From positions 1 to 34,767 of IMG/VR virus record IMGVR_UViG_3300031658_000045: 34,767 nucleotides of DNA; one strand, 5' to 3'. This DNA comes from a virus. A model generated the notes under the pieces. The model saw only the letters and a list, made by a program, of their open reading frames with translations, was not told where the DNA came from and made no database searches. Position numbers and translations under genes: made by a program. This document shows, one piece after another, positions 942 through 32,314 of this stretch; the stretch's first letter is position 1; each line of letters starts with the position of its first letter.

Positions 942-957
942 TGTTAACACGTTAACA
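942..957. promoter_or_regulatory. Operator-like palindrome, site A
   Basis: TGTTAACACGTTAACA, a near-perfect palindrome (7 of 8 base pairs symmetric). It is directly followed by TATAAT at 958-963, a consensus -10 box, with no matching -35. It lies in the 59-bp gap before the lysis-region genes, 38 bp before the ATG at 996. It is one of seven intergenic copies of TGTTnACnnGTnAACA in the window. Confidence 0.7.
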
Positions 958-995
958 TATAATATGAGTAAATTAGTACAAAAGGCGACTGGGAA

Positions 996-1229
996 ATGGA
1001 AATGGATGCACTTTGGAACGTCGGGTTAACCGCTGGGTTCGGGTTCATCGTGTGGTGGGCTAAAGCACAGCACGCCGAACTAGGGCGTGTCCAAATACTT
1101 TTGAACCGTACCCGCGAAGAGATGGCAAAGGAGTACGTCACCAAGGCGGATTCGTCCCAAGTTCTTAGCCAAATAATAACCAAGTTTGATCGAATCGAAG
1201 AGAAGATAGACCGACTTATGGAGAGATAG
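996..1229 (+). CDS. Small membrane-anchored coiled-coil protein (lysis region)
   Basis: A 77-residue protein. A hydrophobic segment at about residues 5-22 (LWNVGLTAGFGFIVWWA) is followed by a charged helical stretch ending in IITKFDRIEEKIDRLMER, a heptad-like coiled coil. One TM plus a cytoplasmic or periplasmic coiled coil is common for small proteins next to phage holins. It could be a class III-type holin, an antiholin or a spanin-like partner; the sequence does not decide. ATG at 996 and ATG at 1002 are both possible starts. The SD is weak (GGGA). It stands first after operator A and is followed 2 bases later by the next gene. Confidence 0.65.
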   Translation: MEMDALWNVGLTAGFGFIVWWAKAQHAELGRVQILLNRTREEMAKEYVTKADSSQVLSQIITKFDRIEEKIDRLMER

Positions 1230-1231
1230 TT

Positions 1232-1702
1232 GTGGACCCGGTTACATGTATTGCAGCTGCCAGCGCCGCTTTTAAAGGCATCAAGAAGGCAGTCGAATTC
1301 GGCAAGAGCATACATGAAATGTCTGGGACTATATCGCAATTTGCGAAGGCTGCGTCAGACATAGATTTTTTAGAAAAGAAAGCAGAGAAACCGCCCCTGT
1401 ACAAAATGTTTGGAGATGTTGAGGCCAACGCGTTGGAAATTTGGTCCCAAAAACAGAAATTGGCGGAAATGAGGGAAGAACTCCGCAGCCATATTAGTTG
1501 GAATTACGGGCCGAGTGCTTGGGAAGCCATAGTAAAAATTGAGGGACAGCAACGTAAAAGGCAACAAGAGTTGGTGTATAAAAAGCAAGAATTCATAGAC
1601 AAATGTATATCCTGGGCGGTCGGGTTAGCCCTAATGTTTGCCGGGTTCGGGGCCTTAATAGGTATCCTTTTTCTCTTAGGCGCTAAACACGGGAAGTGGT
1701 GA
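1232..1702 (+). CDS. Conserved marine-phage hypothetical protein with one C-terminal TM segment
   Basis: A 156-residue protein beginning at GTG, preceded by GGAGA. The first 120 residues are helical and charged (SIHEMSGTISQFAKAASDIDFLEKKAE, AEMREELRSHISWNYGPSAWEAIVKIE); residues ~128-150 (WAVGLALMFAGFGALIGILFLL) are a clear membrane segment with a short basic tail. The layout MDP..C.AAA.AAF.GIK.AV..G..IHEM is one I associate with uncharacterised proteins of cyanophages and pelagiphages near lysis genes (from memory). Function is unknown; a tail-anchored membrane role during lysis is a guess from context. Confidence 0.7.
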   Translation: MDPVTCIAAASAAFKGIKKAVEFGKSIHEMSGTISQFAKAASDIDFLEKKAEKPPLYKMFGDVEANALEIWSQKQKLAEMREELRSHISWNYGPSAWEAIVKIEGQQRKRQQELVYKKQEFIDKCISWAVGLALMFAGFGALIGILFLLGAKHGKW

Positions 1703-1708
1703 ATACTG

Positions 1709-1873
1709 ATGTGGTTTTTGGTTTGGATGCATTTCATGAATAACGATCTTCAGTATCACCAGCTGTCGCAGCACTCAGATCGAAGTGCGTGTATGAAAGC
1801 CAAGGACGACGCAATGGTGTTGGTAACAGCAAGTACAATAATGGTTCAATGTTTTGAGGTTATACCAAAATAG
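1709..1873 (+). CDS. Small hypothetical protein, 54 aa
   Basis: Starts at ATG 1709, 6 bases after the previous stop, behind a purine-rich GGAAGTGGTGA, and ends at TAG 1871-1873. The protein begins MWFLVWMHFM, then has SDRSACMKAKDDAMVLVT and ends VQCFEVIPK. The two Cys residues with a helix between them and the hydrophobic start resemble very small phage proteins of unknown function in the same neighbourhood in other marine phages. It fills a gap that otherwise has no gene. Confidence rests on position, start and composition, not homology. Confidence 0.55.
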   Translation: MWFLVWMHFMNNDLQYHQLSQHSDRSACMKAKDDAMVLVTASTIMVQCFEVIPK

Positions 1874-1874
1874 G

Positions 1875-1997
1875 TTGGGAAAATACGTGGTCTACGATGA
1901 AAATAACAAAGTCGTAATCATAACGCACCACAAGCAACTGGCCGTAAACCACGCAAGGAGAATACTAAATGGCAGACAAAGACCCAAGACTAGCTAG
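1875..1997 (+). CDS. Possible small protein, 40 aa
   Basis: A TTG-initiated frame directly after the previous stop, reading GKYVVYDENNKVVIITHHKQLAVNHARRI and ending at TAG 1995-1997. It overlaps the next gene by 29 bases. The alternating beta pattern followed by a helix looks protein-like. The only SD candidate (TTGAGG at 1853-1858) is too far upstream for comfort, so this is a tentative call. Confidence 0.35.
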   Translation: MGKYVVYDENNKVVIITHHKQLAVNHARRILNGRQRPKTS

Positions 1998-2256
1998 GGC
2001 AGGGGTGTCGGGCTTTAACAAACCGAGGAGAACACCGAGCCACCCTAAGAAATCGCACGTCGTCGTTGCTAAAGAAGGTGAGCAGGTAAAGACGATCCGT
2101 TTTGGTGAGCAAGGTGCTTCCACTGCGGGAAAACCGAAGGCCGGTGAGAGCGACAAGATAAAGAAGAAACGTACAAGTTTTAAAGCTAGGCACGGCAAAA
2201 ACATAGCCAGAGGCAAAATGTCAGCAGCCTATTGGGCAAACAAGGAGAAATGGTGA
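1969..2256 (+). CDS. Basic conserved phage protein (DUF6321-like)
   Basis: A 95-residue, strongly basic protein. It has the stretches DPRLARAGVSGFNKPRRTP, HPKKSHVVVAKEG and KTIRFGEQGASTAGKP, and a C-terminus with KKKRTSFKARHGKNIARGKMSAAYWANKEKW. I recognise this pattern from marine-phage proteins given a DUF6321-type name; the domain number is from memory. The charge suggests nucleic-acid binding or virion packaging. The final SFKARH..NI..GKMSAAYWA segment is also seen in unrelated phage proteins. AAGGAG precedes the ATG. The stop overlaps the next start (TGATG). Confidence 0.75.
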   Translation: MADKDPRLARAGVSGFNKPRRTPSHPKKSHVVVAKEGEQVKTIRFGEQGASTAGKPKAGESDKIKKKRTSFKARHGKNIARGKMSAAYWANKEKW

Positions 2257-2405
2257 TGCACAAGAAAACTGGATTGTATTCTAACATCGCGGCCAAGAAG
2301 AAACGCATAGCCGCTGGTTCGGGCGAAAAGATGCGCAAACCGGGCACCAAAGGTGCTCCCACAGCGGCTAACTTTAAGCGAGCCGCTAAAACAGCGAAAG
2401 GGTAA
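2256..2405 (+). CDS. Small Lys/Arg-rich protein, 49 aa
   Basis: Starts at the ATG overlapping the previous stop (GGTGATG), with GGAGAAA as SD, and ends at TAA 2403-2405. It begins MHKKTGLYSNIAAKKKRI, followed by AAGSGEKMRKPGTKGAPTAANFKRAAKTAKG. The GSGEKMRKPG.KGAPT pattern is a hallmark I associate with tiny basic proteins of marine phages, often next to the DUF6321-like gene. It probably binds nucleic acid or is a virion component; this is inference from composition. Confidence 0.65.
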   Translation: MHKKTGLYSNIAAKKKRIAAGSGEKMRKPGTKGAPTAANFKRAAKTAKG

Positions 2406-2973: not shown

Positions 2974-3360
2974 ATGTTACAATCATTATTAGGCCCGGTG
3001 GCAAATCTTGCGGGGTCATGGCTCCAAGGCAAAGCGGATAAGAACGCTGCATCCGCTCAACTCAAATTAGTAGAAGCTGAGAGCAAAGCTAAAATTCTCC
3101 TGTCCAAAGAAACTTCGACTGCCGACTGGGAACGGATCATGGCAGAAAATTCTGAGGGGTCATGGAAAGACGAGTTTTTCTCAATAATCCTCGCGATCCC
3201 CTTATTTTTATGCTTCATACCCGGCATGGAAGGCGTTGTAGCCCACGGATTTGAACAGCTTTCTCTAGCCCCGGACTGGTATTTTTGGGCACTTTTAACT
3301 GCAATTTCAGCTTCGTTCGGCGTCAAAGGCGCAAAACAGTTTATGGGGGGCCGAAAATGA
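2974..3360 (+). CDS. Holin-like protein (3-TM phage holin family type)
   Basis: A 128-residue protein. The N-terminus is a helical Ala/Lys-rich region (about 17-60), then GSWKDEFFSIILAIPLFLCFIPG (residues 62-84) starts the membrane part, and WYFWALLTAISASFGVKG (102-119) is another TM helix. GSWKDEF..I...IPL...FIP plus P.WY......A..FG.KG is the signature I know from the holin_3TMs/GTA-holin group. It would form the inner-membrane lesion that releases the endolysin encoded next. Its stop overlaps the endolysin start (ATGA), a typical lysis cassette. It follows operator B. Confidence 0.8.
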   Translation: MLQSLLGPVANLAGSWLQGKADKNAASAQLKLVEAESKAKILLSKETSTADWERIMAENSEGSWKDEFFSIILAIPLFLCFIPGMEGVVAHGFEQLSLAPDWYFWALLTAISASFGVKGAKQFMGGRK

Positions 3361-6591: not shown

Positions 6592-8308
6592 TATCCCCTC
6601 AGTATCGTCTCCACTCCCAAGAGACTTGCAACAGTTTATTCAGCGAGTTCGCGAGGCGTTGGACGGAGGCGGGGCGGATGCCGTTGTAACAGCGCGGCAG
6701 CTCATCGCTGCGGGAGTAGTAAAAACTACCAGTGGTGGCGGGTTTGCTCCCGTGAACGGACCAATCGAGGCTCCGCGCCCTCCGCGCAATCTAACTACGT
6801 CCGGTGCGCTTGCCAATATTATTGTGGCGTGGGCTGCTCCAAATTACAGCGGGCACGCCTATACTGAGGTTTGGGCGCACACATCAGACGTTATAGGTGA
6901 TGCGGTCCTTGTGGGTATGACAGCGGGCAACAGTTTTGCGCACAACTTAGGTGCAGCTGCCACTCGGTATTACTGGGCTCGAAACGTAAACCAAAACGGT
7001 GTTGTGAGTGCTTATAACGCTACAAATGGAACTGAGGGCACGACTGGGCAGGACGCTGCGTACTTGCTATCGGTGCTTTCGGGGAAGGTTACTTCTACTC
7101 AGCTTGCCACCTCTCTTGGCACCCGAATTGATCTGGTAGACGCAGACGCCAGCGTAACTGGTTCTGTAAACCAGCGGGTACAAACGGTAGCCACAGTGGT
7201 GGGCGATAACACAGCTGCTGTTGCGGTTAATACCAATTCGGTTGGCGGTTTAGAGGCTCAGTACACAGTAAAGATCGACAATAACGGGCATGTCTCTGGG
7301 TTTGGCCTAGCTTCTACAACGGTAGATGGGGCGCGGGTTAGTGATTTTATAGTAGCGGCAGACCGCTTTTCTGTTGTTAACCCGACCGAGACTTTCGACA
7401 TTGGCGTGTCTTTTAGTGGTTCCTCAATCTATAGACGGTACATACAAGTCTCTCTTTCTATCTATAACGCCTACACATATGTAGCGGGGGATACGCTTAC
7501 CGTGAGAGAGATGGGTGTGTACAGTAGAGAGTATAACATCACTGGAAAGGGCAATATAATCAGCCCAAACCTCGGTTACGTCCTCGAAATCGCACGAACA
7601 AGCAACTATCCCGGGACGTTGATCGATTTTCCTGTCCAATCGTCTAGTTGGTTCACTGCAAACTACCCCAACGCAAACGTCGGGATCAACCTAGAGGTAA
7701 AATCACCGTTCGTCATCAGCACAGGGTCGACCCAGATTAACGGCGTTGCTGTCCCTGCCGGGACTTATATAGACAGCGCCATGATTGCGGATGCCACAAT
7801 TAACAACGCGCAGATTAACAATCTGACGGCAGACAAAATTACGGCAAGCCTACTCAACACTGTAGACTTTTACGGGAACACTATCGCGGGTTCCACAATT
7901 TATTTAGGCGGCACCATCACGTACACCACTGACTCGGGTGGAAATAACATCGGGATTGCGTCTGTTGCCTCGCCCAAAGTTGTGATGGCACCCACGGGTG
8001 CATTCTTCGCAGTAGACGCGTTTACGATTGATAATCCCGGTGGCACCAACGCCGTACCGTTTAGCATTACTAGCGGCGTTGTGAGTATTGACAGTGCGTT
8101 AATTAAAGACGGTACGATTACAAACGCAATGATTGGAAACACAATCCAATCTACCAACTACAGCGACGCTAACAACACTGGTTGGAAACTAGAGAAAAAC
8201 GGGAACTTAGACTTAAACAGCGCGTCGATTACGGCGGGCACTCTTCAATCGACCGACGGCAACTTTGTGATTGATTTGACCAACGGCACAATAACTATAT
8301 CGGCTTAA
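6584..8308 (+). CDS. Central tail tip / receptor-binding protein with lambda J-like (DUF1983-type) region
   Basis: The longest frame starts at TTG 6578, but GTG 6584 sits 7 bases after GGAG and is the better start (574 aa, overlapping the previous stop by 8). An N-terminal linker is followed by a fibronectin III-like domain (about 60-140: PPRNLTTSGALANIIVAWAAPNY...YYWARNVNQNGVVSAYN). Then comes a segment typical of the phage lambda J C-terminal region: QYTVKIDNNGHVSGFGLAS, VSDFIVAADRFSVVNP. The end has repeats such as DATINNAQINNLTADKI and DGTITNAMIGN, a beta-helical fibre shaft. It probably contacts the receptor. Such a domain is more usual in siphovirus tail tips. Confidence 0.7.
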   Translation: MANIPSVSSPLPRDLQQFIQRVREALDGGGADAVVTARQLIAAGVVKTTSGGGFAPVNGPIEAPRPPRNLTTSGALANIIVAWAAPNYSGHAYTEVWAHTSDVIGDAVLVGMTAGNSFAHNLGAAATRYYWARNVNQNGVVSAYNATNGTEGTTGQDAAYLLSVLSGKVTSTQLATSLGTRIDLVDADASVTGSVNQRVQTVATVVGDNTAAVAVNTNSVGGLEAQYTVKIDNNGHVSGFGLASTTVDGARVSDFIVAADRFSVVNPTETFDIGVSFSGSSIYRRYIQVSLSIYNAYTYVAGDTLTVREMGVYSREYNITGKGNIISPNLGYVLEIARTSNYPGTLIDFPVQSSSWFTANYPNANVGINLEVKSPFVISTGSTQINGVAVPAGTYIDSAMIADATINNAQINNLTADKITASLLNTVDFYGNTIAGSTIYLGGTITYTTDSGGNNIGIASVASPKVVMAPTGAFFAVDAFTIDNPGGTNAVPFSITSGVVSIDSALIKDGTITNAMIGNTIQSTNYSDANNTGWKLEKNGNLDLNSASITAGTLQSTDGNFVIDLTNGTITISA

Positions 8309-8310
8309 TT

Positions 8311-8919
8311 ATGAGTATAACGATCACTGATGCAGCAGGAGTACTACGAGAGTTTAGGGTGCATAACCCTTGGAACTTCGCGCGTTTTTATGAAGAAAGT
8401 TTAGCCTTGCTCGGTCAGCGCGTAAATGTGGTGTTGGGCGATCTTGTTGCAGACGAAAATGGACCTCTAGTCGTAAGCGATACACTTCTGGCAAACAGCA
8501 TTCTTGTGAGTTCACGCAAGCAGACTGCCGTAGCGATAACTGCACTCAAAATTGCGCAGCCTTACACTCGAATGAAGAATGACTGCATTTCTCTTTCCGC
8601 ACGATTTATGGACGAACTGACAGGTACAAAAAACTATACCACGCGTTACCGTCAGATTACGGTTCGAGAGTACCTTGCAAACTTAGGCGGCGGCGCTGCC
8701 GACTACATTTTAGAACTCGGGTTGCAAGAGGTCGACCCAGAAACGTTGCAGGTAAACGACATCATCCTTGGGGGTCTGCCAGATATACCAGAGATTACTT
8801 CGCATACGGCGATCTATCTTGGTAACGATAAAATCCTTCACCACAGGCCGTACAAACTTTCTTCCATAGACGATCTTGCTACCGCCGACGTCCAGAGGGT
8901 CTTTCGTCATGCCAACTAA
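8311..8919 (+). CDS. NlpC/P60-like tail protein (putative cell-wall peptidase)
   Basis: A 202-residue protein. The C-terminal half has KNDCISLSARFMDELTG (C92), then VNDIILGG, then SHTAIYLGNDKILHHRPY (H165, H177/H178), the Cys...(G)D...H-x-A-I-Y-L-G order of NlpC/P60 peptidases. In lambda-like tails the K protein has this domain next to J, and here it directly follows the J-like gene. It may cut peptide cross-links during genome entry. The N-terminal 80 residues are not recognised. There is no obvious SD, so translation may be coupled to the gene before (2-base gap). Confidence 0.6.
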   Translation: MSITITDAAGVLREFRVHNPWNFARFYEESLALLGQRVNVVLGDLVADENGPLVVSDTLLANSILVSSRKQTAVAITALKIAQPYTRMKNDCISLSARFMDELTGTKNYTTRYRQITVREYLANLGGGAADYILELGLQEVDPETLQVNDIILGGLPDIPEITSHTAIYLGNDKILHHRPYKLSSIDDLATADVQRVFRHAN

Positions 8920-9166
8920 AACGCTGTATATGAACAAAGTAACCGGGGCGTTGATGATTACCGATTACGTCTCCGACGCTTCTACCCGTGAAGCTACAAT
9001 GGCGTCTCGCCTAGCTAACCCTAACTCTAATCTGGCCACAATTAATTTCCATACCGACTTTGAGTTCATAAGTGTCCTCGATGAATTGACCTTATCGTCC
9101 GCAAGTTTTTCGAGCCAAGCTTTGAGTACACGAGTGTGGAGTACAGGCGGCGGGGGCTGCTGTTAA
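8909..9166 (+). CDS. Small hypothetical tail-region protein, 85 aa
   Basis: ATG 8909 with GAGGGT upstream is preferred; an in-frame upstream start at 8876 would lie deep in the previous gene. It overlaps the NlpC/P60-like stop by 11 bases and its own stop overlaps the next ATG (TAATG). The protein starts MPTKTLYMNKVTGALMITDY and ends STRVWSTGGGGCC, with an unusual four-Gly, two-Cys terminus. No family is recognised. Tight packing between tail genes suggests a small virion or assembly protein. Confidence 0.6.
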   Translation: MPTKTLYMNKVTGALMITDYVSDASTREATMASRLANPNSNLATINFHTDFEFISVLDELTLSSASFSSQALSTRVWSTGGGGCC

Positions 9167-9435
9167 TGGCAACAATTTATGTACCAGAACTTCAAGTTGA
9201 GAGTGTTAACGTCGGAACGACCAGCGTTAGTAATCCATCTTTGTTCGTTTTGGAAATTGGGGGCGTTTTGTACGGCGACCAGTACACAGATTCCACAGCA
9301 ACTTATTCGCGCACAGTTTTTTGTACGTTCGATAGCGCTTCGAGCATGGTTAAACTAACCTGTATATCAGTCGCCATTCGAGCAACCTGTCCTGCGTTGT
9401 CTCTAAGCAACGTAAAGGTTTACATCATTGGTTGA
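9166..9435 (+). CDS. Small beta-rich hypothetical tail-region protein, 89 aa
   Basis: ATG 9166 overlaps the previous stop, with GGCGGGGG before it. The protein starts MATIYVPELQVESVNVGTTS and is made of short alternating polar/hydrophobic stretches with many Ser, Thr and Val and three Cys. It looks like a small beta-sandwich. No family is recognised. The stop overlaps the TTG start of the next gene by 8 bases, so it is part of the same translation chain. Confidence 0.6.
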   Translation: MATIYVPELQVESVNVGTTSVSNPSLFVLEIGGVLYGDQYTDSTATYSRTVFCTFDSASSMVKLTCISVAIRATCPALSLSNVKVYIIG

Positions 9436-10171
9436 TCGCATCTCTATAACAACAAGTCGGATTGTAACGCGCAACAGCTCAAATGCTGTGACGTTTGATA
9501 CCAACGATAAGTATATTAAAACCGTTAGCAGCGGCGCTTTCAAGGTTGGTGGGTTAGCTCGCGGACCATGCCTTGTGGGCTTCGCAGTCGAAAACAACGA
9601 CCAGTTTTTTGACTACCATCAGAACAAAGGGTTTACCAGTTTACTTAGTCGTCCTGCTACTACTCTAACCCCCGGCACGGCGCTTGCCTTAGAATTCTTT
9701 GTCCCATCTCACAACTTTTCTTCGACAACTTATTCTGCAAGTTTTAGCGCGTCTAACATCGGGCAGCTTAACTTTGGCGCAATTAGAATTCCGCCTGCTT
9801 CATTATCGGGCGCGTCTATTAATAACAACGGCCAAACGACCAGCAACGTAGTAATGTTAAACCGCCGAGAAAGCCCATCTGACAACTGGAGCTTCGTGAC
9901 TTCAGGAAAAGTTATTTACCAGACTTTGTATTGGACTGAGAATAGTCTTAACGTTTCAGGCAGCGCTTACTTACTAAACGTTGATCTGCTTAACTTCGCT
10001 GCAAGCGGGCGAAGCACATCTTACTACTATCGCCTTTCGGTGTCTTCATCGTGGAACAATACCATGCTGGCGGGCGGAAACTATGCAAACTACGGCGCGC
10101 AATCGTACCGAGTTGCTGGGCCTTCAGTGGGACGTCCCCCCGCTGAATTAGACTTGGACGTGACACCATGA
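9428..10171 (+). CDS. Beta-rich virion protein, 247 aa
   Basis: Begins at TTG 9428, the only reasonable start near the previous stop. The start DRISITTSRIVTRNSSNAVTFDTNDKYIKT resembles the start of the next gene (LRVDSTKIYIENAAGDTKFDSTQRLVF), so the two may share an N-terminal module. The rest is rich in Ser, Asn, Tyr and aromatic residues with almost no charge, as in fibre or tail-tip decorations. No family is recognised; a minor tail or adsorption protein is inferred from position and composition. Confidence 0.6.
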   Translation: MVDRISITTSRIVTRNSSNAVTFDTNDKYIKTVSSGAFKVGGLARGPCLVGFAVENNDQFFDYHQNKGFTSLLSRPATTLTPGTALALEFFVPSHNFSSTTYSASFSASNIGQLNFGAIRIPPASLSGASINNNGQTTSNVVMLNRRESPSDNWSFVTSGKVIYQTLYWTENSLNVSGSAYLLNVDLLNFAASGRSTSYYYRLSVSSSWNNTMLAGGNYANYGAQSYRVAGPSVGRPPAELDLDVTP

Positions 10172-10638
10172 GTTTGCGCGTTGATAGCACTAAGATTTAC
10201 ATTGAGAACGCTGCTGGGGATACAAAATTTGATAGCACTCAGCGACTGGTATTTCGGGGCGGAACAAAGACTGGTAGCACCACGATTACCTCCACGCAGT
10301 ACAGCAAACAAATAAGCCATGGACTGACGTTTGACCCAGACAAGTTTTTCTACAACCTGTTTATCACCATAACGGCATGTAGCGGAAATGGGGTGAGTGA
10401 CCTAATTAACGTTCGCGTCCCTGCCAACAATCAACTTTTGATTAACTTAGACACAACCTTGGTAAACTCGGTGGTTGACGCGTACTCCCTTGTTTTATCG
10501 GCGGCGGTTAGCAAGTCTGAGTTGATTTTTACATACGGAGAACACGGGGTAGCGACACTGGTGTTTCCAGAGTACCGGCCCCCCGGCCTGTCAATTAGCT
10601 TTGACTACGAACTTTATCTGTTTCGGTTCAGCGAGTGA
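10168..10638 (+). CDS. Beta-rich virion protein, 156 aa
   Basis: Starts with ATG 10168 overlapping the previous stop (ATGA). The first ~30 residues share a pattern (S/T-K/R-I...N....T.FDS/T) with the gene before, suggesting a duplicated attachment module. The rest, with KQISHGLTFDPDKFFYNLFITITACSGNG, is beta-like. It is probably a minor tail component. No known family is recognised. Confidence 0.6.
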   Translation: MSLRVDSTKIYIENAAGDTKFDSTQRLVFRGGTKTGSTTITSTQYSKQISHGLTFDPDKFFYNLFITITACSGNGVSDLINVRVPANNQLLINLDTTLVNSVVDAYSLVLSAAVSKSELIFTYGEHGVATLVFPEYRPPGLSISFDYELYLFRFSE

Positions 10639-10645
10639 GGATAAC

Positions 10646-10861
10646 ATGGATTTAACCAATAAAACTATTGACGTTGAGGGGTTGGCTATCAACCCACAAG
10701 CTAACGAAACCACTGCTCAAGTGGTGCTACTAACTCAAGTGGCGGCGGGTGTTTTTCAGAAAAGCGATAGCTACGCGCTTGTGCTGGCTGATACCTTTTT
10801 ATCTGTCGATGACCCCAACCTAATGGTAGAGATAGTAAACATACTAGAGCAGTTGCCATGA
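10646..10861 (+). CDS. Small acidic hypothetical protein, 71 aa
   Basis: ATG 10646 with TGAGGA 5-10 bases upstream is the clear start; an in-frame upstream start (10601) lies inside the previous gene. The protein begins MDLTNKTIDVEGLAINPQAN and has a hydrophobic, acidic C-terminal half (YALVLADTFLSVDDPNLMVEIVNILEQLP). No family is recognised. It is the last gene before operator C, so it closes the tail cluster. Confidence 0.6.
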   Translation: MDLTNKTIDVEGLAINPQANETTAQVVLLTQVAAGVFQKSDSYALVLADTFLSVDDPNLMVEIVNILEQLP

Positions 10862-10894
10862 AGCTTTTTTGGTCTATGAATACGCAATCTAATG

Positions 10895-10910
10895 TGTTAA
10901 CATGTGAACA
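10895..10910. promoter_or_regulatory. Operator-like palindrome, site C
   Basis: TGTTAACATGTGAACA in the 70-bp gap between the tail cluster and the GNAT gene, 21 bp before its TTG start. TGTATCGT just downstream is only a weak -10 match. It likely marks the start of the operon for the acetyltransferase and internal virion proteins. Confidence 0.7.
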
Positions 10911-10931
10911 TGTATCGTTTGGTTCGCGGCT

Positions 10932-11354
10932 TTGTTAGTTTTTGACAACAAGAAACGGGTCGGCGATTGGGTCGCCAATCGGGTAGGTCAAACGACCTCA
11001 TGGGGCGACTTTTACGCAATGGGCGCTGAGAAAAAAGGTGAACTTGCTGCTGGGGTCGTGCTGAACAACTTCACTCCTTGCAGCGCAACGGTCCATCTTG
11101 CGGTTAGCACACCCACGAAGAGCTTGTCGGAGCTGCTGGACCACGCTTTTTTATACGCGTTCAAGACCTGCAAGCTCCGAAGGTTAACTGGGTTGGTAGA
11201 GGCGAACAATGCAAAGTCACTCAAAATTATTAAGCGCCTTGGCTTTGTCCAAGAGGGCGTCATGCGTGAAGCTGGCACAGACGGGCAAGACATCATTGTC
11301 CTTGTTTTGTGGCCTGAAAATTACCGGAAAGGTCGACTAAATGGGCAAAAGTAA
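10932..11354 (+). CDS. GNAT-family N-acetyltransferase
   Basis: A 140-residue protein beginning at TTG (an in-frame TGA at 10905 blocks longer starts and there is no in-frame ATG). The start LLVFDNKKRVGDWVANRVG fits phage GNATs. The core shows GELAAGVVLNNF (strand beta4 region), then LRRLTGLVEANNAKSLKIIKRLGFVQEG, where N-A-K-S...RLGF is the usual C-terminal acetyl-CoA-binding part. It should transfer acetyl from acetyl-CoA to an amine; the substrate is unknown. It sits at the head of the internal-virion operon, where it might modify a virion or host protein. It overlaps the next gene by 14 bases. Confidence 0.75.
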   Translation: MLVFDNKKRVGDWVANRVGQTTSWGDFYAMGAEKKGELAAGVVLNNFTPCSATVHLAVSTPTKSLSELLDHAFLYAFKTCKLRRLTGLVEANNAKSLKIIKRLGFVQEGVMREAGTDGQDIIVLVLWPENYRKGRLNGQK

Positions 11355-12381
11355 TCCAACCCCGGCCCCCGACTACCAACCGCTTGCCGACGCAAGCCGT
11401 GCGGCGATGGAAAGTCAAACGCAGTTAGGTAGAGATCAGCTTGCTTTCGCTCGGGAACAGTATGACCGTTCCGCTCCGATCCTTGAGGGTATAGCTAACC
11501 AGCAGATGACTGCGCAATCCGAGCAAATGGCTCAAGCTCGAGATTATTATAATTACCAAAAAGACACGTACCGCCCTCTGGAACGAGGGCTTGTAGCGGA
11601 CGCCCAGAGATTTAATACAGACGCGTACGCAAATGAGTTAGCATCTAAAGCCTCGGCGGACGCAGGTTTGGCCTTTGGTCAGGTCCAAGCGCAGAACCAA
11701 CGAGCATCTCGTTCAATGGGCGTAAACCCCAACTCAGGTCGGTTTGCTGGTATGCAGAACGCCACAGGATTACAACAAGCCGCCGTTCGGGCTAACGCTA
11801 TGACAGGGGCTAGAAACCAAGCGCAGCAGATGGGTTACGCACGTAAGCTCGATGCAGCTGGTCTCGGTCGCGGGCTTGCTGGTGCCTCAGCAGCTGCCTA
11901 CGGCGGCGCGTCCAACGCGGGTTCCATGGCTGGCGGAAACGCACAATCGGCGGGTCAAAACTATATGGGCAACTCAGCTATCGGCGCTGGCACTATAAAT
12001 GCGGGTTACGGACAAGGTATATCTGGTCTCGGCAGTGTGCTGAACAACTCTGTGAACCAGTATATCAATACCCAAGACAGCACTCTTGGTGACATCGGCG
12101 CTATCGCTGGTGCGGGTGCATCTATCTACGCGACGTCAGACGAACGGTTGAAAGACAACATCAGGGAAGTCGGTGTAGACCAACGCACGGCTCTGACACT
12201 TTACGAGTTTAATTACAAAGAAGGGTTCGGTGATCCAAAAATCCGCTACCGTGGTGTAATGGCCCAAGAGGTTGAGCTTAGCTACCCAGACGCAGTCTTC
12301 ACCCGTACAGACGGCGTGTTCAACGGCTACAAAACAGTCGACTACGGTATGCTCGGCATACAAATGAAAGAGGTCGCGTAA
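11341..12381 (+). CDS. Virion protein with C-terminal S74-type intramolecular chaperone domain
   Basis: A 346-residue protein. Residues ~15-170 are helical and Gln/Ala-rich; ~175-235 are Gly/Ala/Ser-rich. The last 80 residues, from SDERLKDNIREVG (S266, D267) through LYEFNYK, RYRGVMAQEVE and TVDYGMLGIQMKE, match the peptidase S74 / intramolecular chaperone domain that trims itself off trimeric fibres (S-D of SDERLK at the cleavage site). It is found on phage fibres and on some podovirus internal or tail proteins. The stop overlaps the next start (TAATG). An internal core or adsorption role is inferred from neighbours. Confidence 0.75.
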   Translation: MGKSNPTPAPDYQPLADASRAAMESQTQLGRDQLAFAREQYDRSAPILEGIANQQMTAQSEQMAQARDYYNYQKDTYRPLERGLVADAQRFNTDAYANELASKASADAGLAFGQVQAQNQRASRSMGVNPNSGRFAGMQNATGLQQAAVRANAMTGARNQAQQMGYARKLDAAGLGRGLAGASAAAYGGASNAGSMAGGNAQSAGQNYMGNSAIGAGTINAGYGQGISGLGSVLNNSVNQYINTQDSTLGDIGAIAGAGASIYATSDERLKDNIREVGVDQRTALTLYEFNYKEGFGDPKIRYRGVMAQEVELSYPDAVFTRTDGVFNGYKTVDYGMLGIQMKEVA

Positions 12382-13907: not shown

Positions 13908-13922
13908 AAAGCGGAAAAACTT

Positions 13923-21336: not shown

Positions 21337-21352
21337 TGTTTACACGTAAACA
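21337..21352. promoter_or_regulatory. Operator-like palindrome, site D
   Basis: TGTTTACACGTAAACA, symmetric except at the two central bases, 85 bp before the integrase ATG. It is followed by CATAATAG, which overlaps a -10-like ACATAAT, as site A overlaps TATAAT. Confidence 0.7.
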
Positions 21353-21376: not shown

Positions 21377-21406
21377 TTGACATTCAATGACGAATAAAGT
21401 ACGAAT
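21377..21406 (+). promoter_or_regulatory. Possible sigma70-type promoter for integrase
   Basis: A perfect -35 TTGACA (21377-21382) is followed after 17 bases by TACGAA(T) at 21400-21406, a poor -10. The whole element is covered by the TGACGAA inverted repeat, which could let a bound protein block it. Confidence 0.3.
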
Positions 21407-21437
21407 AGTTCGTCATTTGTAGGCGGGGTAAACTAAC

Positions 21438-22427
21438 ATGGCGTCTATCAAGAAACTAAAAACAGGCATGTGGCAAGCACAAGTTCGAATGGACGGTGTA
21501 CGCGCGTCTAAGACCAAGCCAACAAAAACAGAAGCTAAAGACTGGGCTGCTGCAAAAGAGCATGAAATTAAAACCTCTGTCGTGGTTAAGACGACGTCGT
21601 CCACTTTTGGAGAAGCAGCGCTCCGCTACGAAATGGAATTTAGCCGTGGTAAAAAAGGTGTGAAGTGGGAGCAAGGACAGATCAGTCGGTTACTCAAGAT
21701 GCCAATCGCTAAGATAAACATACAGAAAATCGAGCGTTCTGATGTCCGTTCGTGGAGAGATGCTCGCCTTAAAAAAGTTCAAGGTTCCACAGTTAACCGA
21801 GAGTGGAACTTGCTGTCGCATATATTTTCAACTGCCAGAGACGAGTGGGAACTTATCGAAGCTAACCCGATGACGGGGGTGAAGCGGCCAAAAGAAAACC
21901 CACCACGGGATCGTCTTATATCAGACAGCGAGATTGAGCAGATTTGTTTAGCCGCCGGTTTTGATGAGACTACGACGACGACGGTACAGGGAGAGGTGTG
22001 TGTTGCGTTTCTCTTCGCGATTGAGACCGCCATGAGGGCAGGAGAGATTTGTCAGATGGTGTGGGGTAACGTCGACACTGAAAAACGAACAGTGTTCTTA
22101 CCCTCAGAAATTACAAAGAACGGTAAGAAAAGAACAGTAGCGCTTTCTGCACGGGCGGTGGAGTTACTGGCTTTACTGCCGCCTACGAACCGCGCCACAT
22201 GCTTTAGGTCAAACAGTAAACAACTGGATGCCACCTTCAGAAAACTCAAAAGTAAGACGACCGTAGTTGACTTGCATTTTCACGATACGCGCCACGAAGC
22301 GATTACGCGGCTGTCCAAGAAGCTACCTGTGCTGGCGTTGGCCCGAAACGTGGGGCACACGAATATTAACCAGTTGATGACTTACTACAACGAAGACGCC
22401 GAAGACCTCGCGAAGCTCCTAGAATAA
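21438..22427 (+). CDS. int: Tyrosine recombinase / phage integrase
   Basis: A 329-residue protein. The N-terminal ~50 residues (GMWQAQVRMDGVRASKTKPTKTEAKDWA) look like an arm-binding domain, followed by a helical core-binding domain (~55-150). The catalytic domain contains ETAMRAGEI (R200), the beta-hairpin EITKNGKKR (K227 or K230), HDTRHEAITRL (H282, R285), GHTN (H307) and MTYYNEDAEDLA (Y316 the likely nucleophile): the full R-K-H-R-H-Y set. It should insert the circular phage genome at a host attB site. Purine-rich AGGCGGGG precedes the ATG. Its 3' end overlaps by 9 bases the end of the excisionase-like gene on the other strand. Confidence 0.95.
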   Translation: MASIKKLKTGMWQAQVRMDGVRASKTKPTKTEAKDWAAAKEHEIKTSVVVKTTSSTFGEAALRYEMEFSRGKKGVKWEQGQISRLLKMPIAKINIQKIERSDVRSWRDARLKKVQGSTVNREWNLLSHIFSTARDEWELIEANPMTGVKRPKENPPRDRLISDSEIEQICLAAGFDETTTTTVQGEVCVAFLFAIETAMRAGEICQMVWGNVDTEKRTVFLPSEITKNGKKRTVALSARAVELLALLPPTNRATCFRSNSKQLDATFRKLKSKTTVVDLHFHDTRHEAITRLSKKLPVLALARNVGHTNINQLMTYYNEDAEDLAKLLE

Positions 22428-25931: not shown

Positions 25932-25947
25932 TGCTTACGCGTTAACA
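25932..25947. promoter_or_regulatory. Operator-like palindrome, site E
   Basis: Plus-strand TGCTTACGCGTTAACA (minus strand TGTTAACGCGTAAGCA), one base off the consensus. It is only 12 bp before the PrimPol-helicase ATG, too near for a promoter -10 to lie downstream of it, which argues for a repressor or roadblock role. Confidence 0.65.
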
Positions 25948-25952
25948 GATTG

Positions 25953-25978
25953 GGTAGCCGAAGTTGCCCTCGGCTACC
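25953..25978 (-). terminator. Perfect 9-bp hairpin between SSB and primase
   Basis: GGTAGCCGA and TCGGCTACC pair over an 8-base loop. It lies after the SSB stop and before operator E. There is no T-run on the minus strand, so it may be an attenuator, an RNA-stability element or a Rho-type end instead of a standard terminator. Confidence 0.4.
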
Positions 25979-26762: not shown

Positions 26763-27281
26763 TTAATTTAAAGTAAATCCGTCTGTCACCGCGAAAGCTG
26801 AAGCTGTGCGCGTGGACACTTTCTTGAGTTCGTCAAGCTCACCGTCTTGTAAAAAACGTGTGACCCTAAACGAGAGTGAGGTTCGATTGTTGCTCTCCAC
26901 CGTGTCGATCTTGGTGACAACATTGGATAGCTTCTCGCCTCTGCTTACGACCTGCTTCTCATAGTCTCTAAGTGCTCGTAGAGAAGTGGCCGGTACAACT
27001 AACGACAGCGTGTTTGGGCTGTTTAACTGTATAAGTGAGAGTTGACTAAACTCTCGACAGCGTTTGCCGCGTTTGCCGTTAGGTGTAATCTTGGAACCCC
27101 ACTGATTGTGTGTGCAGATTGCGCACTTTTTCGCCTGTGGGGTCTCTGTATCTGCTGCCGGAACGACGCCGTCGTCGGAGTGGCACATGTGCTCATTCTC
27201 GTTGGTGTAACAGGTACGAGCGCTGGTTACGCCCGATACTACTACAGCCTCGATAGGTAGTTCCCCAAAATCCAGCATCAT
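26763..27281 (-). CDS. Conserved phage protein with Cys cluster, 172 aa
   Basis: Cysteines at 24, 33, 53, 56 and 75 (KKCAICTHNQWGSK...KRGKRC), followed by a helical/beta C-terminal part (PATSLRALRDYEKQVVSRGEKLSNVVTKID). The C..C..NQWGS...GK.GK.C pattern is one I have seen in uncharacterised proteins encoded by phage replication regions; it suggests a zinc-ribbon DNA-binding role. Operon context with SSB (17-base gap) and with the 133-residue gene (ATGA overlap) supports replication or recombination. Function is not known. Confidence 0.6.
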   Translation of the reverse strand: MMLDFGELPIEAVVVSGVTSARTCYTNENEHMCHSDDGVVPAADTETPQAKKCAICTHNQWGSKITPNGKRGKRCREFSQLSLIQLNSPNTLSLVVPATSLRALRDYEKQVVSRGEKLSNVVTKIDTVESNNRTSLSFRVTRFLQDGELDELKKVSTRTASAFAVTDGFTLN

Positions 27282-27679
27282 TTGCGCCTAAAGTTCACAA
27301 CTTGTGTTTCGCTCCAGTTAGTACCGGGGATAAGATCGTCGTGTTCTTCGCGGAACTGCAATGCGCCTGTCTTGCTCACACGGACATCCGCAAGCTCCCA
27401 AGCGTCATGCTCTTTGATGTAATTAGTAAAAACGTCACGATCTGCTACGGTGGCGGACGAACGTGTCGACCTGTAAGCAGTCCCAAACTCACGTGAAGAT
27501 ACGTTGTCGATGCCCCGGTCGTCGAAACGACGAAGGAACTCGATCTCTATGCCGTCCTGTTTGCTCTTGTCACCAGCGTCGTCCAGCGTGTAATCCGCTT
27601 TGCGTTTAGCGCGTCTGTCCCGCAATTGGATGAAAAACTGTAGTAGCGTTTTGTCGTCCAGCTTTTGTACTTGTGCCAT
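27278..27679 (-). CDS. Conserved phage hypothetical protein, 133 aa
   Basis: Begins AQVQKLDDKTLLQFFIQLRDRRAKRKADYTLDD, a charged helix, then KSKQDGIEIEFLRRFDDRGIDNV, FGTAYRSTRSSATVADRDVFTNYIKEHDAWELADVRVSKTGAL and ends PGTNWSETQVVNFRRK. The order ...LR.RR..RK...A.DK..Q..IE...L.....G..S......G..Y...R.S..V.D........ is very typical of a family encoded beside phage SSB genes (from memory, function unknown). SD GGAGAG precedes the ATG. It overlaps the HTH gene by 74 bases and ends in an ATGA overlap. Confidence 0.65.
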   Translation of the reverse strand: MAQVQKLDDKTLLQFFIQLRDRRAKRKADYTLDDAGDKSKQDGIEIEFLRRFDDRGIDNVSSREFGTAYRSTRSSATVADRDVFTNYIKEHDAWELADVRVSKTGALQFREEHDDLIPGTNWSETQVVNFRRK

Positions 27680-27876: not shown

Positions 27877-27892
27877 TGTTCACATGTAAACA
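27877..27892. promoter_or_regulatory. Operator-like palindrome, site F
   Basis: Plus-strand TGTTCACATGTAAACA. It lies between the SNF2 helicase stop and the AlpA-like gene, 19 bp before that gene's ATG on the minus strand. The close spacing leaves room only for the SD. Confidence 0.7.
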
Positions 27893-27916
27893 CATTAGTT
27901 TTTCTGGTTCAAGGCG

Positions 27917-29482
27917 TCAAGCGATTACGCGATGTGCTTTTACTTCATCGAGGAGCGCACCTTGCATCTTCTGCTTTTTACGGAGCCTCGCGTAGATGCG
28001 TTTCTCGACTGGAGTACCTTCCAAACAAATAATAAAGTTGTTCATCTTCTGCCCCGGTCGATTGATACGACCGTTAGCTTGTTCGAAAGTCTCGTTCGAT
28101 GTGATGCAGCTGTACCAGATTATTGTGCTGGCTGCGGTTAGTGTTAGCCCGTGAGACATAGCGGCTGGCTGCGCAACTAAAACCCGCGGTTCATCGGACT
28201 TCTGGAACGCTCCAAAGATGCGGTCACGTTCTGTCTTACTTACACCGCCGTGGATAACCTCGACTGAAAACGTTTTGCGTAGCTCGGCTGCTACCATCTT
28301 AACCGAAGAGACGAACGGGACGAACACGATCACCTTACCCTGAGCTGATTGAATAATAGCTCGGGTCTCCTCCACGCGAGGCGACGTCGGGATCGTAACT
28401 TCTGTGCCATCGGTTGCGTAGACAACACCACATGCTATCTGCACCAGCTTAGCCATCTTCACAGCTTCGTTTACCGCTGTGATTTCACCTTCATCTGCTT
28501 GTATGCTGAGGCGTGTAAGCATCTCTTTGTATGCTTTGTTCTGCTCCGGCGTCAGCGTCACCGCCCTCGTCTCGTACATAAGCGGGGGTAGATCGAGGCA
28601 CTCATCTCTGGTGAAGCGAACCGACGGCTGCATCACATCCTTAACGATCTGTGTGGCTTCGGGTCTGGCTACCCACTGGAACTGCGATAGCTGCTTCATC
28701 ACTGTGCCCTTGAACCTGTTAAAGTATGGCGGCACACTGGCAGGGTTTATAAGGCGACACTGTGCCCACGCATCAGTAGGCGAATTTGGCGTAGGCGTTC
28801 CTGACATACCCCAGCAAGACCGAGGTTCTTTGTGCCGGTTGACTACCAAGTTGATCTGCTTCCAACGTGTCGTCCCAGCGTTACGGGCACACTGCGCTAT
28901 CTCGTCGACGATCACTAAGTCGATGTCGGTCCGCGTCTTTAGGTGGGGCTCGAGGATGCCAACACCGTCGTGGTTGACGATGTACACGTCGAAGTCTTCT
29001 TTGAGTAACTTGATGCGTTTATCTTTGGAGCCGTGCAGAACAGCAAACGTGAGGTGTGGGAAATGGTTGAACAGTTCGTCGGCCCATGTGCGTTCTAGCG
29101 TAGACAGCGGTGAGATGATTAAACACTTGTTTAGTAGCCCGATACTTTTGAGGTAATCGTAAGCCCACAGGGACGCCAGAGACTTGCCAGTACCCAGTTC
29201 ACTGAGGTTAAACGCGCGACGGTGCATAGACAGAAAAGCTGCTGCTTCCTTCTGAGCGTGGAACGGCGTGAAGCGCCCCGGCCAATCGTAGTAAGTCCTG
29301 ATGGGGGCAGGGGCTTTGTAGCCCAAATTACGCAGCAGTCGGGTCTCTTCGGTGCGGTGTGGCACTGCAACCAACGATGTACCGTTAACTGTAAATGGTT
29401 TAGCGGTTGGGACTACGTTTAAAACTTGGGTGGAGTCTCGAAGCTTTAGCACCAGCGCTTTCTTCTCCTTCACTATTAGCAT
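27917..29482 (-). CDS. SNF2-family DNA helicase/ATPase
   Basis: A 521-residue SF2 ATPase. Motif I is NLSELGTGKS (K100, a variant of DEMGLGKT), motif II IVDEIAQ (D193, E194), motif III WGMSGTPTPNSP, and motif VI QANGRINRPGQ (468-478, R472 and R475 arginine fingers). These are the helicase motifs of SNF2/RapA-like proteins, and the length matches the compact phage versions. It uses ATP to move on duplex DNA, probably for origin opening, recombination or fork remodelling. The start has a strong AGGAGG SD located inside the DUF3310-like gene (83-base overlap). No nuclease domain is fused. Confidence 0.9.
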   Translation of the reverse strand: MLIVKEKKALVLKLRDSTQVLNVVPTAKPFTVNGTSLVAVPHRTEETRLLRNLGYKAPAPIRTYYDWPGRFTPFHAQKEAAAFLSMHRRAFNLSELGTGKSLASLWAYDYLKSIGLLNKCLIISPLSTLERTWADELFNHFPHLTFAVLHGSKDKRIKLLKEDFDVYIVNHDGVGILEPHLKTRTDIDLVIVDEIAQCARNAGTTRWKQINLVVNRHKEPRSCWGMSGTPTPNSPTDAWAQCRLINPASVPPYFNRFKGTVMKQLSQFQWVARPEATQIVKDVMQPSVRFTRDECLDLPPLMYETRAVTLTPEQNKAYKEMLTRLSIQADEGEITAVNEAVKMAKLVQIACGVVYATDGTEVTIPTSPRVEETRAIIQSAQGKVIVFVPFVSSVKMVAAELRKTFSVEVIHGGVSKTERDRIFGAFQKSDEPRVLVAQPAAMSHGLTLTAASTIIWYSCITSNETFEQANGRINRPGQKMNNFIICLEGTPVEKRIYARLRKKQKMQGALLDEVKAHRVIA

Positions 29483-29962: not shown

Positions 29963-30251
29963 CAACCTTCTCCATTATGGCTATTACTTGTTCGACGTCG
30001 TCGACGACATGTGCTAACCCGTAAGCACGTGTAATACCGTCTATTTCACGTTGCTGGTTAGGCGTAACGTTCTTTATTTTTCCCGGCGCTTTCGTTTCGA
30101 AGGCCATGAACAGACCCTTGTAACACACCAGAATGTCTGGGCACCCGACGCGGCCCATCCCGTTGGACACTGGCATGTAGTACCAAGCACCGACGGATTG
30201 AAGGTATTCTCTGACCTTCTTTTTTACTTTGCCTTCTGGTGTCATCGCCAT
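29946..30251 (-). CDS. VRR-NUC domain nuclease
   Basis: A 101-residue stand-alone PD-(D/E)XK-type nuclease: GMGRVGCPDILVCYKGLFMAFETKAPGK gives P38-D39...E52-x-K54, and Q66/Q67 follows (TPNQQREIDGI). The length and order match phage VRR-NUC proteins, which cleave branched DNA such as flaps or Holliday junctions. It is probably involved in resolving replication or recombination intermediates. GAGG lies 8 bases before the ATG. It overlaps the HNH-like gene start, so translation is coupled. Confidence 0.85.
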   Translation of the reverse strand: MAMTPEGKVKKKVREYLQSVGAWYYMPVSNGMGRVGCPDILVCYKGLFMAFETKAPGKIKNVTPNQQREIDGITRAYGLAHVVDDVEQVIAIMEKVDGQII

Positions 30252-30254: not shown

Positions 30255-30443
30255 TTAAACCTCAAGCCGCCCGACATCTATAAAGTCTCCATAAATCTCA
30301 ATATAGCTCTCAAGCCTATGTAGTAACTCGTTTTCTAGTGGTGTTACCGATTCTTTATGCGTCCCGTAAGCATGTAGTTCTACGTTATTCATGTCGATTA
30401 ACTCAGTTTTGTCTCTGCTATTTATACTCACTGTACTGTTCAT
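30255..30443 (-). CDS. Small hypothetical protein, 62 aa
   Basis: Reads MNSTVSINSRDKTELIDMNN, continues through HAYGTHKESVTPLENELLHRLESYIEIYGD and ends FIDVGRLEV. The helix ENELLHRLESYIEIYG is plausible. The SD is weak (GGCAGAA); the internal ATG at 30392 is an alternative start. It lies 3 bases before VRR-NUC in the same direction. No family is recognised. Confidence 0.5.
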   Translation of the reverse strand: MNSTVSINSRDKTELIDMNNVELHAYGTHKESVTPLENELLHRLESYIEIYGDFIDVGRLEV

Positions 30444-30479
30444 TTCTGCCAGACCTATAGTCGCTGGCGCTCTATGTTG

Positions 30480-31145
30480 TTATTTCCCGCAGTACTCACA
30501 CAAGCTGAGCCCCACGGGGCACCAATTCTTACAAAGGCCACTCGGCTTAGGTAGCCACTTGTCGTCTTTGTAAGCCATGGCAACTCGGCTTAATCGGGGC
30601 ATAAACTCATTCCATATCTCGGGTAACTGTGCACGTGTGAACACCTCTTTGTCAAACTTTTCTACTTTCAACCAGATAAAGCCAGTCACCACGTTTTCGA
30701 TCCAAGGATACATGGCAAACGCGAGAGCGGCGAACAGCTTTAATTGGTCGTTGTCGGGCCTGTGTTTACCTGTCTTCCAATCTAACAAGTACGCAGTCTT
30801 TGAGCCGACTACACCGATGTCTATGATCCCACGCACCCAGACGTCTTTTGCCATCCAAGTGGTGGATCGGAAGTCTTTAGTAAGCGCGACACGTTCTTCG
30901 ACAACACGCTTACCTTCGTAGTTTTGTATCTTCAGCACGTAGCGCTCGTACTCTGCCATCTCAGGAGGTAGTGGTGTCCTGTCTCGGGCAAACAGTTCGA
31001 GCGCCTTATGCACTTTGTTACCCCAACGGGTAGCTTCGGTCTGCTTTTCGACAACTTGCTTAGTAACGCGCGTGAGTTGGAAGCGCTTTGGGCAAGTCTC
31101 GAAAGCTGTTAACGCAGAGTAACTCCACGGTTTAGTTAGTTCCAA
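30480..31145 (-). CDS. Cas4/RecB-like PD-(D/E)XK exonuclease with Fe-S cysteines
   Basis: A 221-residue protein, TTG start (AAAGGA upstream). The motifs are WGNKVHKALE (H46), VRGIIDIG (D109), LLDWKTGK (D122, K124) and QLKLFA (Q134), the H...D...DxK...Q set of RecB/Cas4 nucleases. C18 near the start (FETCPKRF) and C205, C209, C216 and C219 at the end fit a 4Fe-4S cluster as in Cas4 and AddB. It is likely a 5'-3' or bidirectional exonuclease for recombination. There is no CRISPR array or cas1 in the window, so a phage recombination role is preferred. Confidence 0.85.
   Translation of the reverse strand: MELTKPWSYSALTAFETCPKRFQLTRVTKQVVEKQTEATRWGNKVHKALELFARDRTPLPPEMAEYERYVLKIQNYEGKRVVEERVALTKDFRSTTWMAKDVWVRGIIDIGVVGSKTAYLLDWKTGKHRPDNDQLKLFAALAFAMYPWIENVVTGFIWLKVEKFDKEVFTRAQLPEIWNEFMPRLSRVAMAYKDDKWLPKPSGLCKNWCPVGLSLCEYCGK
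30628..30643. promoter_or_regulatory. Possible intragenic operator-like site
   Basis: TGTGCACGTGTGAACA, one base from the operator consensus, inside the Cas4-like gene and upstream of the VRR-NUC group on the minus strand. It may be chance. Confidence 0.25.
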
Positions 31146-31729
31146 GGCGGTAGTCCTTTATCTTCAAATATTTCGGTATCCACGATATCCCAAAACTGGG
31201 CCAGTAACTCAGCTCTCATCTCCGTGTCTATCCGCGCTGTCTTGCGGGTGTCGCGGTAAGCGTCCAAGAACAACAGTCGGCGACCTGCCCACCCGTGTTC
31301 CAATTTAGCTACCCACTGCAACCGCTGGTGGTAGTCTGCTTCGCCGTGCAACTCTATTGCTTTGGCTACGGCCCTGCCGGACCGTTCTCGTCGTTGCTGC
31401 TGCACAAACCTGCCGTTTACACGGCGTTGGAGTTTCTGCACCTGTTCCCACGCCAAGTCTTGTTTGGAGAACGTGTCGCGTAGTTCCAGTAGATACTTCG
31501 TAAAGCCTTCCGTGTCGTGGGCGTAACGGTATATTACTGGTCCTAGGAACTCATGCGCTTTTGGTAGTAGAAAATTAAATTGGTTCTCTACAAAAGTCTG
31601 CATGTATTTGTCCGCGAGGTGCATCCACTTCTGCACAGAGTGCGGGTTTTTTTCCAAGAACGTAGTGCAACTACGCAACTCGTCCTCTGTTGGAAATTCA
31701 AGTGGTTCTTTGTGTGGGAATAAGCCCAT
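31136..31729 (-). CDS. Helical hypothetical protein, 197 aa
   Basis: A charged protein with many aromatic and Arg residues, for example QKWMHLADKYMQTFVENQFNFLLPKAHEFLGPV, LQRRVNGRFVQQQRRERSGRAVAKAIELHG and KTARIDTEMRAELLAQFWDIVDTEIFE. No motif or family is recognised. It overlaps the Cas4-like gene by 10 bases and the Cys-rich gene before it by 32 bases, so it is part of the recombination operon. Confidence 0.6.
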   Translation of the reverse strand: MGLFPHKEPLEFPTEDELRSCTTFLEKNPHSVQKWMHLADKYMQTFVENQFNFLLPKAHEFLGPVIYRYAHDTEGFTKYLLELRDTFSKQDLAWEQVQKLQRRVNGRFVQQQRRERSGRAVAKAIELHGEADYHQRLQWVAKLEHGWAGRRLLFLDAYRDTRKTARIDTEMRAELLAQFWDIVDTEIFEDKGLPPWN

Positions 31730-32225
31730 TTATCGTTTTCCTATTTCGTGAAACAAAGGCTGTGTGGTCGGTACATTTTTCTAAGCACCCTATAGTTAAG
31801 CCCATTTCGCTTCTATTATGTTCTGTCGGGACAAGGTTTCCCGGTTTTATGTGACGGGGTCGCTTCACAGAGCTACAATTTGAACCTCTTGGTTCGTTCG
31901 GCCACGGTTGCGCTTGCAAGAATGTTGCGTCTGCTGGCGTTTTATAATCCACCGCTATGTACGGCGAGGCTTGCTTTGCGATAGACCAATACATCGCTTT
32001 GTGCCTACAGCCGCCGCGCGCAGCTGCGTCGTCTTTACGGTTTTTCCACTGACTGCCCGTCGGGATACCGGGAATTGAGCGCCGTTTTGTAGATACTGTC
32101 TCTTCCGGTGCGACGTAACGCGCGTGACATGTTCGTCTCGTAATATCTATTGCTGTACTCTGCGTACTTACTTTTGCGCGGGGCCAAAAAACCTCGATCT
32201 TCAGTACGTGTGCTGTTCTATTCAT
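31698..32225 (-). CDS. Cys/His-rich basic orphan protein, 175 aa
   Basis: First gene after operator G on the minus strand, with GGGGGG 8 bases before the ATG. It is basic and contains RRTCHARY, GGCRHKAMYWS, GSNCSSVKRPRHIKPGNL and GLTIGCLEKCTDHTAF, so at least five Cys and several His could bind zinc. I recognise no family. Without it the 490 bases from 31730 would be empty in an otherwise packed genome. The last 10 codons overlap the next gene. A DNA- or RNA-binding early regulator is a guess. Confidence 0.5.
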   Translation of the reverse strand: MNRTAHVLKIEVFWPRAKVSTQSTAIDITRRTCHARYVAPEETVSTKRRSIPGIPTGSQWKNRKDDAAARGGCRHKAMYWSIAKQASPYIAVDYKTPADATFLQAQPWPNEPRGSNCSSVKRPRHIKPGNLVPTEHNRSEMGLTIGCLEKCTDHTAFVSRNRKTINGLIPTQRTT

Positions 32226-32272
32226 CTGTAATTCCCCCCAGATTTACATTTATTTAGAATCTGTTCTGTACG

Positions 32273-32314
32273 TGTTTATACGTATGTAACACAAAGTGCG
32301 CTCACGTGTAAACA
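32273..32314. promoter_or_regulatory. Operator-like sites, region G
   Basis: CGCTCACGTGTAAACA (32299-32314; minus strand TGTTTACACGTGAGCG) keeps one good half. A second element TGTTTATACGTATGTAACA (32273-32291) has both TGTT and AACA ends with wider spacing. Together they fill the 100-bp gap before the Cys-rich gene. This is the most degenerate member of the set. Confidence 0.5.

Follow-up and report, generated by a model that had tools for sequence, protein, structure and literature searches.

Dispersed palindromes, probably operators, covary with a candidate lysogeny repressor gene in a group of uncultured phages

The linear virus record IMGVR_UViG_3300031658_000045, analyzed here over its whole length of 34,767 bp (the window), represents a phage that encodes PolA, a DUF927 primase, an SNF2 helicase, an AlpA-like protein, a PDDEXK nuclease, and a tyrosine integrase. 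Dispersed over it is a family of 16-bp palindromes, TGTTnACnnGTnAACA, which are probably operators of a lysogeny repressor, the most likely binder being the product of gene g31136 (31136-31729, minus strand; 197 aa), acting as a dimer. Comparison of related genomes shows, at the level of sequence, that the loss or gain of the sites accompanies that of g31136 and, in records covering the region, that of the integrase. Our best reading of g31136 is that it represents a previously undescribed repressor family without a sequence or fold match.

Distribution of the sites in the window

Six exact copies of the motif (at 942, 2939, 10895, 15737, 21337, and 27877), eight copies at no more than one mismatch, and 14 at no more than two were found, compared with means of 0.005, 0.12, and 1.98, respectively, in first-order Markov sequences with the window's own composition. 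The reversed motif, used as a control, yields one match at up to two mismatches. Single mismatches occur in the copies at 25932 and 30628, and two in those at 32299 and 33993. A first-pass annotation made from the window alone had named these copies, and exact and mismatch scans find all of its coordinates correct. It had also asked whether the copies exceed a shuffled-type background and keep their places in related phages; both are the case, and the copies are best read as one conserved family of predicted binding sites, including the in-gene copies and the "symmetric variant" at 33993. Two sites backed by relatives, at 30012 in the VRR-NUC gene and at 27464, were absent from that list. A two-mismatch match at 33534 was rejected, as it is explained by the conserved protein motif LPRVNPY, which is present in motif-positive and motif-negative relatives alike. 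A literature search with the motif string returned no match.

Mirrored positions are conserved across both halves of the site, as expected of a 16-bp palindrome. Palindromes can also fold as RNA, and pairing between two positions of the motif is slightly above expectation (86 vs. 63.5 of 236 sites). The hypothesis that the sites are RNA hairpins rather than DNA operators is nevertheless rejected: positions 5 and 12 form a Watson-Crick pair in only 36% of the 236 sites, the inner pairs are impossible with a two-base center, and single mismatches are common.

The operators are spread over both genome arms, several of them within genes, and many lie 9-22 bp 5' of start codons. That they stand at the heads of early, late, and integration operons, as had been proposed, is borne out. 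Exact copies precede the lysis/holin-like operon (942-957, TGTTAACACGTTAACA, upstream of 996-1229), the holin-like gene 2974-3360 (2939-2954), the GNAT gene 10932-11354 with the late operon (10895-10910), and the integrase gene 21438-22427 on the plus strand (21337-21352; PF00589, 4.4e-23). The first has a counterpart in the same gene neighborhood of the related record G028 at 4271, the second in G028 at 6229 with the conserved flank AAGTTTATG-TGTTAACACGTAnACA-GATAAGGAG, and the third in G028 at 13322 and in G032 at 12409. At 934-957 and 2931-2954, a partial third half-site is seen 8 bp upstream of each late operator (a shifted 16-mer with two or three mismatches).

Conservation in relatives and selection on in-gene sites

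Relatives were fetched from IMG/VR by polymerase, primase, and integrase. The motif is present at no more than one mismatch in 15 of the 31 fetched records, with zero control matches, and is missing from the remaining ones. Synteny and aligned upstream regions reveal that the same places are marked repeatedly, namely, those before the alpA, primase, holin-like, and GNAT genes. Sites inside vrr, cas4, g27278, and a part of the pol genes recur as well.

Comparison of relatives shows the in-gene sites to be under selection as DNA, because their codons are nearly fixed at the sites and not elsewhere in the same genes. At the vrr site (30012-30027), 59/60, 59/59, and 59/59 sequences have the codons GGG, TTA, and GCA, respectively, vs. 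16-20% elsewhere in the gene; at the site in the Cas4/PDDEXK-like gene (30628-30643), the arginine codon is CGT in 65/65 sequences, vs. 28% elsewhere. When windows along vrr, cas4, and g27278 were ranked by synonymous identity, the site window was second of 96, third of 216, and first of 128, respectively. The g27278 site (27464-27479, in the gene 27278-27679), supported by both synonymous conservation and codon bias, has two mismatches in the window and one in most relatives. Motif-negative relatives mostly use other codons at the positions of in-gene sites. The site in the DNA polymerase A gene (33993-34008) is kept, with better matches, in a part of the clade carrying g31136, and is absent at these codons from records lacking the gene. 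The exact copy at 15737-15752 lies in the gene of a 2390-aa PLxRFG protein (13923-21095), and its codons are kept in G028; the protein itself matches the NCBIfam PLxRFG domain NF032893 (tail-700; E 7e-54).

A search for palindrome families that might have taken the place of the operator in motif-negative relatives yielded nothing clearly above shuffled sequences, except in G020 (L057), where the exact palindrome AAGTCCACCGGTGGACTT occurs twice, at 1791 and 2567, and a similar sequence precedes the primase gene. Possibly, AAGTCCACCGGTGGACTT is a different operator.

Covariation of the motif with g31136

Clustering of open reading frames identified a single cluster, g31136, that is present in all ten motif-positive core records and in none of the 16 motif-negative ones. 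A renewed search with the g31136 alignment returned 72 loci. The 64 newly fetched among them contain 52 exact and 194 one-mismatch copies of the motif, i.e., 246 sites in 628 kb, compared with one match of the reversed control. Where the pol-cas4 region is covered, the motif is found in 64/64 records with g31136 and is missing from 15/16 records without it, so that 64 records have both, 15 neither, and one the motif only. The reverse approach, a scan of IMG/VR with the motif only, picked out a distant phage of 57 kb that has 16 sites; a subsequent profile search revealed a divergent g31136 in it (E 1e-37).

The proteins that had earlier been suggested as binders fare less well. The AlpA-like protein is rejected because it is present in motif-negative relatives and has no fixed difference between the motif-positive and motif-negative groups; neither do sites occur wherever AlpA is conserved, as would be expected of an AlpA-controlled regulon. 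The protein encoded at 32326-32682 was found in the closest relatives only, and the HTH_17 protein in three records only. Still, AlpA-like and HTH_17-like proteins belong to real DNA-binding families, and it may be that AlpA, the small protein g30255 (30255-30443; 62 aa in the window), or an undetected fast-evolving repressor binds the same sites, with g31136 serving another task in lysogeny or acting as a corepressor. We regard this as rather unlikely. g30255 correlates with the motif nearly as well as g31136, but it was not found in the motif-bearing record G007, its length is only 55-86 aa, and it has no DNA-binding signature, whereas the profile search did recover g31136 in the distant 16-site phage.

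Integrase, lysogeny, and the polymerase tree

An integrase accompanies the regulator, as expected of a temperate module. An independent Pfam search detected PF00589 in most long records with g31136 and in none of the six long relatives without it. A profile made from the group's own integrases found the gene, where the region is covered, in 16/16 records with g31136 and in 0/9 records without it. As this profile was seeded from g31136-positive records, it is the Pfam search that gives an unbiased result.

On the polymerase tree, for which positive and negative groups had been set beforehand, at least three independent changes of state are required in all bootstrap trees, involving G022, the group of G008, G011, and G015, and L119, a positive record nested in that group. 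The approximately unbiased test rejects a topology with all negatives in one clade (p 3.9e-5, or 0.0045 without the long-branch row G022).

These data also bear on a lytic-cycle role, in which a timing regulator made together with the replication genes would shut off early promoters or switch on late transcription, with no part in the dormant prophage. The position of g31136 inside the replication operon and the sites before late genes would fit such a role. We consider it improbable, as g31136 is completely associated with the integrase and absent from integrase-less relatives; moreover, virulent-looking relatives should need the same switch, yet their alpA promoter has no operator.

Promoter architecture at alpA, primase, and g31136

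In aligned relatives, the alpA promoter has TTGACn separated by 17 bp from TAAT[CG]T, and the final T of this -10 box is also where the operator begins. In the window, the predicted promoter occupies 27892-27920 on the minus strand (TTGACG at 27920-27915, a 17-bp spacer, TAATGT at 27897-27892), and the exact operator at 27877-27892 covers its start region. Thus, at this best-conserved promoter, the -10 box precedes the operator and shares its first base. The earlier claim that two operators (sites A and D of the first-pass annotation) abut a downstream -10 box holds for the letters of the window but is not conserved in relatives. In most motif-negative relatives, a TTGACA-N17-TATTCT-like promoter is retained at alpA without the operator.

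The primase operator (25932-25947, one mismatch) lies between a predicted hairpin, GGTAGCCGAGGGCAACTTCGGCTACC (25953-25978, minus strand, 5 nt upstream of the operator), and the primase gene. It is conserved in the g31136-positive records that could be read there, where a GC-rich hairpin of varying sequence is followed a few bases on by the operator, with no T-run; relatives have hairpin-like segments with changed sequence, and L111 is a clear exception to the arrangement. In many motif-negative relatives, a hairpin followed by a T-run precedes the primase gene, which looks like an ordinary terminator.

Such placement is relevant to a parS-like function of the sites in DNA segregation, packaging, or nucleoid organization instead of transcription, for which their dispersal over both arms and within several genes could speak. 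The exact overlap with the alpA -10 box, the many copies shortly before start codons, and the operator in place of the terminator T-run upstream of primase render this very improbable.

Many relatives have, between pol and g31136, a promoter-like stretch that ends in TATGT and is followed by TATATACATGTAAACA, comprising a degenerate left operator half and a perfect right half, with a degenerate left operator further upstream. The corresponding region of the window (32273-32314, minus strand), which holds the putative promoter for the g31698-g31136 segment, has a two-mismatch operator at 32299-32314 and a poorer, degenerate copy, TACATACGTATAAACA, at 32273-32288. Downstream of g31136, the first site is that in cas4, at 300-650 bp (0.4-0.6 kb) in 71/71 loci, followed by the vrr site at 800-1500 bp (about 1.1 kb) in 70/71 loci, both at no more than two mismatches. 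This spacing is what a self-limited repressor gene within a lytic operon would need, if the bound protein stops polymerase.

Accordingly arranged sites suggest the following scheme. The bound protein would keep RNA polymerase from initiating at promoters, for instance the one before alpA, and the same protein may stop or slow moving polymerase at promoterless sites before primase and within the Cas4-like and VRR-NUC genes; for the latter three, an elongation block is suggested by site position. In a prophage, g31136 would be transcribed from its own weakly self-regulated promoter, and its expression would leave the downstream replication genes of the same operon off. More tentatively, somewhat short of an even chance, g31136 could be a new class of repressor with a non-helix-turn-helix (HTH), all-helical DNA-binding fold, whose direction-neutral palindromic stoperators in coding sequence let a repressor gene in the middle of a replication operon be transcribed, polymerase being stopped a few hundred bases later.

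The g31136 protein and evidence against its role

AlphaFold2 predicts a confident all-helical monomer of seven helices (predicted local distance difference test score 90). The helix 92-128 is very basic and has invariant arginine residues. By eye, an N and an R stand eight residues apart in the conserved basic stretch, a spacing shared with bZIP basic regions that was not used as evidence. Weak sequence matches of the protein were disregarded, and a search at E 0.1 found no relatives among 50,697 phage records.

Several observations weigh against the assignment of the operators to g31136. The protein is a candidate binder, named on its co-occurrence with the motif and on a single conserved helix that is very basic. 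It has no recognizable DNA-binding domain; its sequence has no match in Pfam, PHROG, NCBIfam, or PADLOC, with no HTH in the first three, and its predicted fold has none at E<=0.001 in PDB or BFVD. The correlation of g30255 with the motif (9/10 motif-positive vs. 0/16 motif-negative records) is nearly as good, and only the integrase marks the phages as temperate.

Further, two related records distant from the window, G045 (L196, 68 kb) and G044 (L226), contain eight and seven nearly identical copies of TGTTAACGCGTTAACA, respectively, in one early region (7162-16622 in G045), with a recurring word, ACTACACTaCCGC, nearby in both. g31136 was not detected in either record, nor by a more sensitive search in G045, and neither was an integrase detected in G045. 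Hence the motif word can occur without detectable g31136; either another protein uses TGTTAACGCGTTAACA there, or g31136 has diverged beyond detection.

Finally, a search of 84,980 species genomes gave a single match to g31136, on a contig from a Flavimaricola metagenome-assembled genome (MAG); this contig has g31136 and an integrase, yet only three sites at up to two mismatches in the 20.6-kb locus. Perhaps, this contig is a decayed prophage or a satellite with few operators. The contig (C86; L123/G043) also carries a primase, while its SNF2 helicase is matched over the first 57 residues only. The hosts of these phages are probably Rhodobacteraceae. Many phages use host regulators, and with the binder still a candidate, the sites might belong to a host transcription factor and be borrowed by the phage. 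This is most improbable: the 4-Mb MAG has two motif matches, at the level of the reversed control (although this is a single MAG, and its binning may be wrong), and on the tree, the motif and a phage gene come or go jointly at least three times.

Relation to known systems

The L5 (cluster A) repressor acts at more than 20 dispersed sites in promoters and short gaps and has been proposed to block the start of transcription as well as its elongation; it is a 183-aa monomer with an N-terminal HTH, and its 13-bp asymmetric sites are oriented with transcription (PMC9283540). The stoperator-like logic proposed in the first-pass annotation holds as a resemblance: here, too, promoters and short gaps between genes hold many sites throughout the genome, the candidate repressor is of similar size (197 vs. 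183 aa), and the phages appear temperate. Unlike in L5, the site is a 16-bp palindrome, conserved copies lie inside coding sequence, and g31136 has neither an HTH nor a fold match; no sequence relation between g31136 and the L5 repressor was found.

The C1 repressor of P1 has 22 operators dispersed on the genome, 17-bp, asymmetric, ATTGCTCTAATAAATTT, and also represses its own promoter (PMC8546580). Dispersed operators and putative self-regulation are shared with our system, whereas the consensus reported here is palindromic. The search of the phage collection described above gave no match to g31136 (whether P1 is among its records was not checked).

As with lambda CI, the operator is palindromic and overlaps promoters, a dimer is expected to bind it, and the repressor gene is predicted to regulate itself. 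The system differs in the lack of an HTH match and in having sites genome-wide and in genes; lambda operators cluster at two control regions. In logic, the L5 stoperators and the P1 C1 operators come closest. The palindromes belong to neither system, because the sites are asymmetric in both and the L5 repressor is an HTH monomer.

For uncultured, largely marine phages without an annotatable repressor, the analysis names a candidate repressor together with its operator and regulon. In metagenomes, the motif and this single gene would serve to tell temperate members from virulent ones. If the scheme is correct, it would be an independent occurrence of stoperator-like silencing outside mycobacteriophages, and, the site being palindromic, it would allow a direct test of whether blocking elongation depends on the orientation of the site.

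Inverted repeat upstream of the integrase

Directly upstream of the integrase gene, at 21386-21417, lies an inverted repeat, AATGACGAA...TTCGTCATT, which is a candidate attP core, integrase arm site, or int leader hairpin. Its arms read AATCACGAC...GTCGTGATT in the related record G002, both having changed together.

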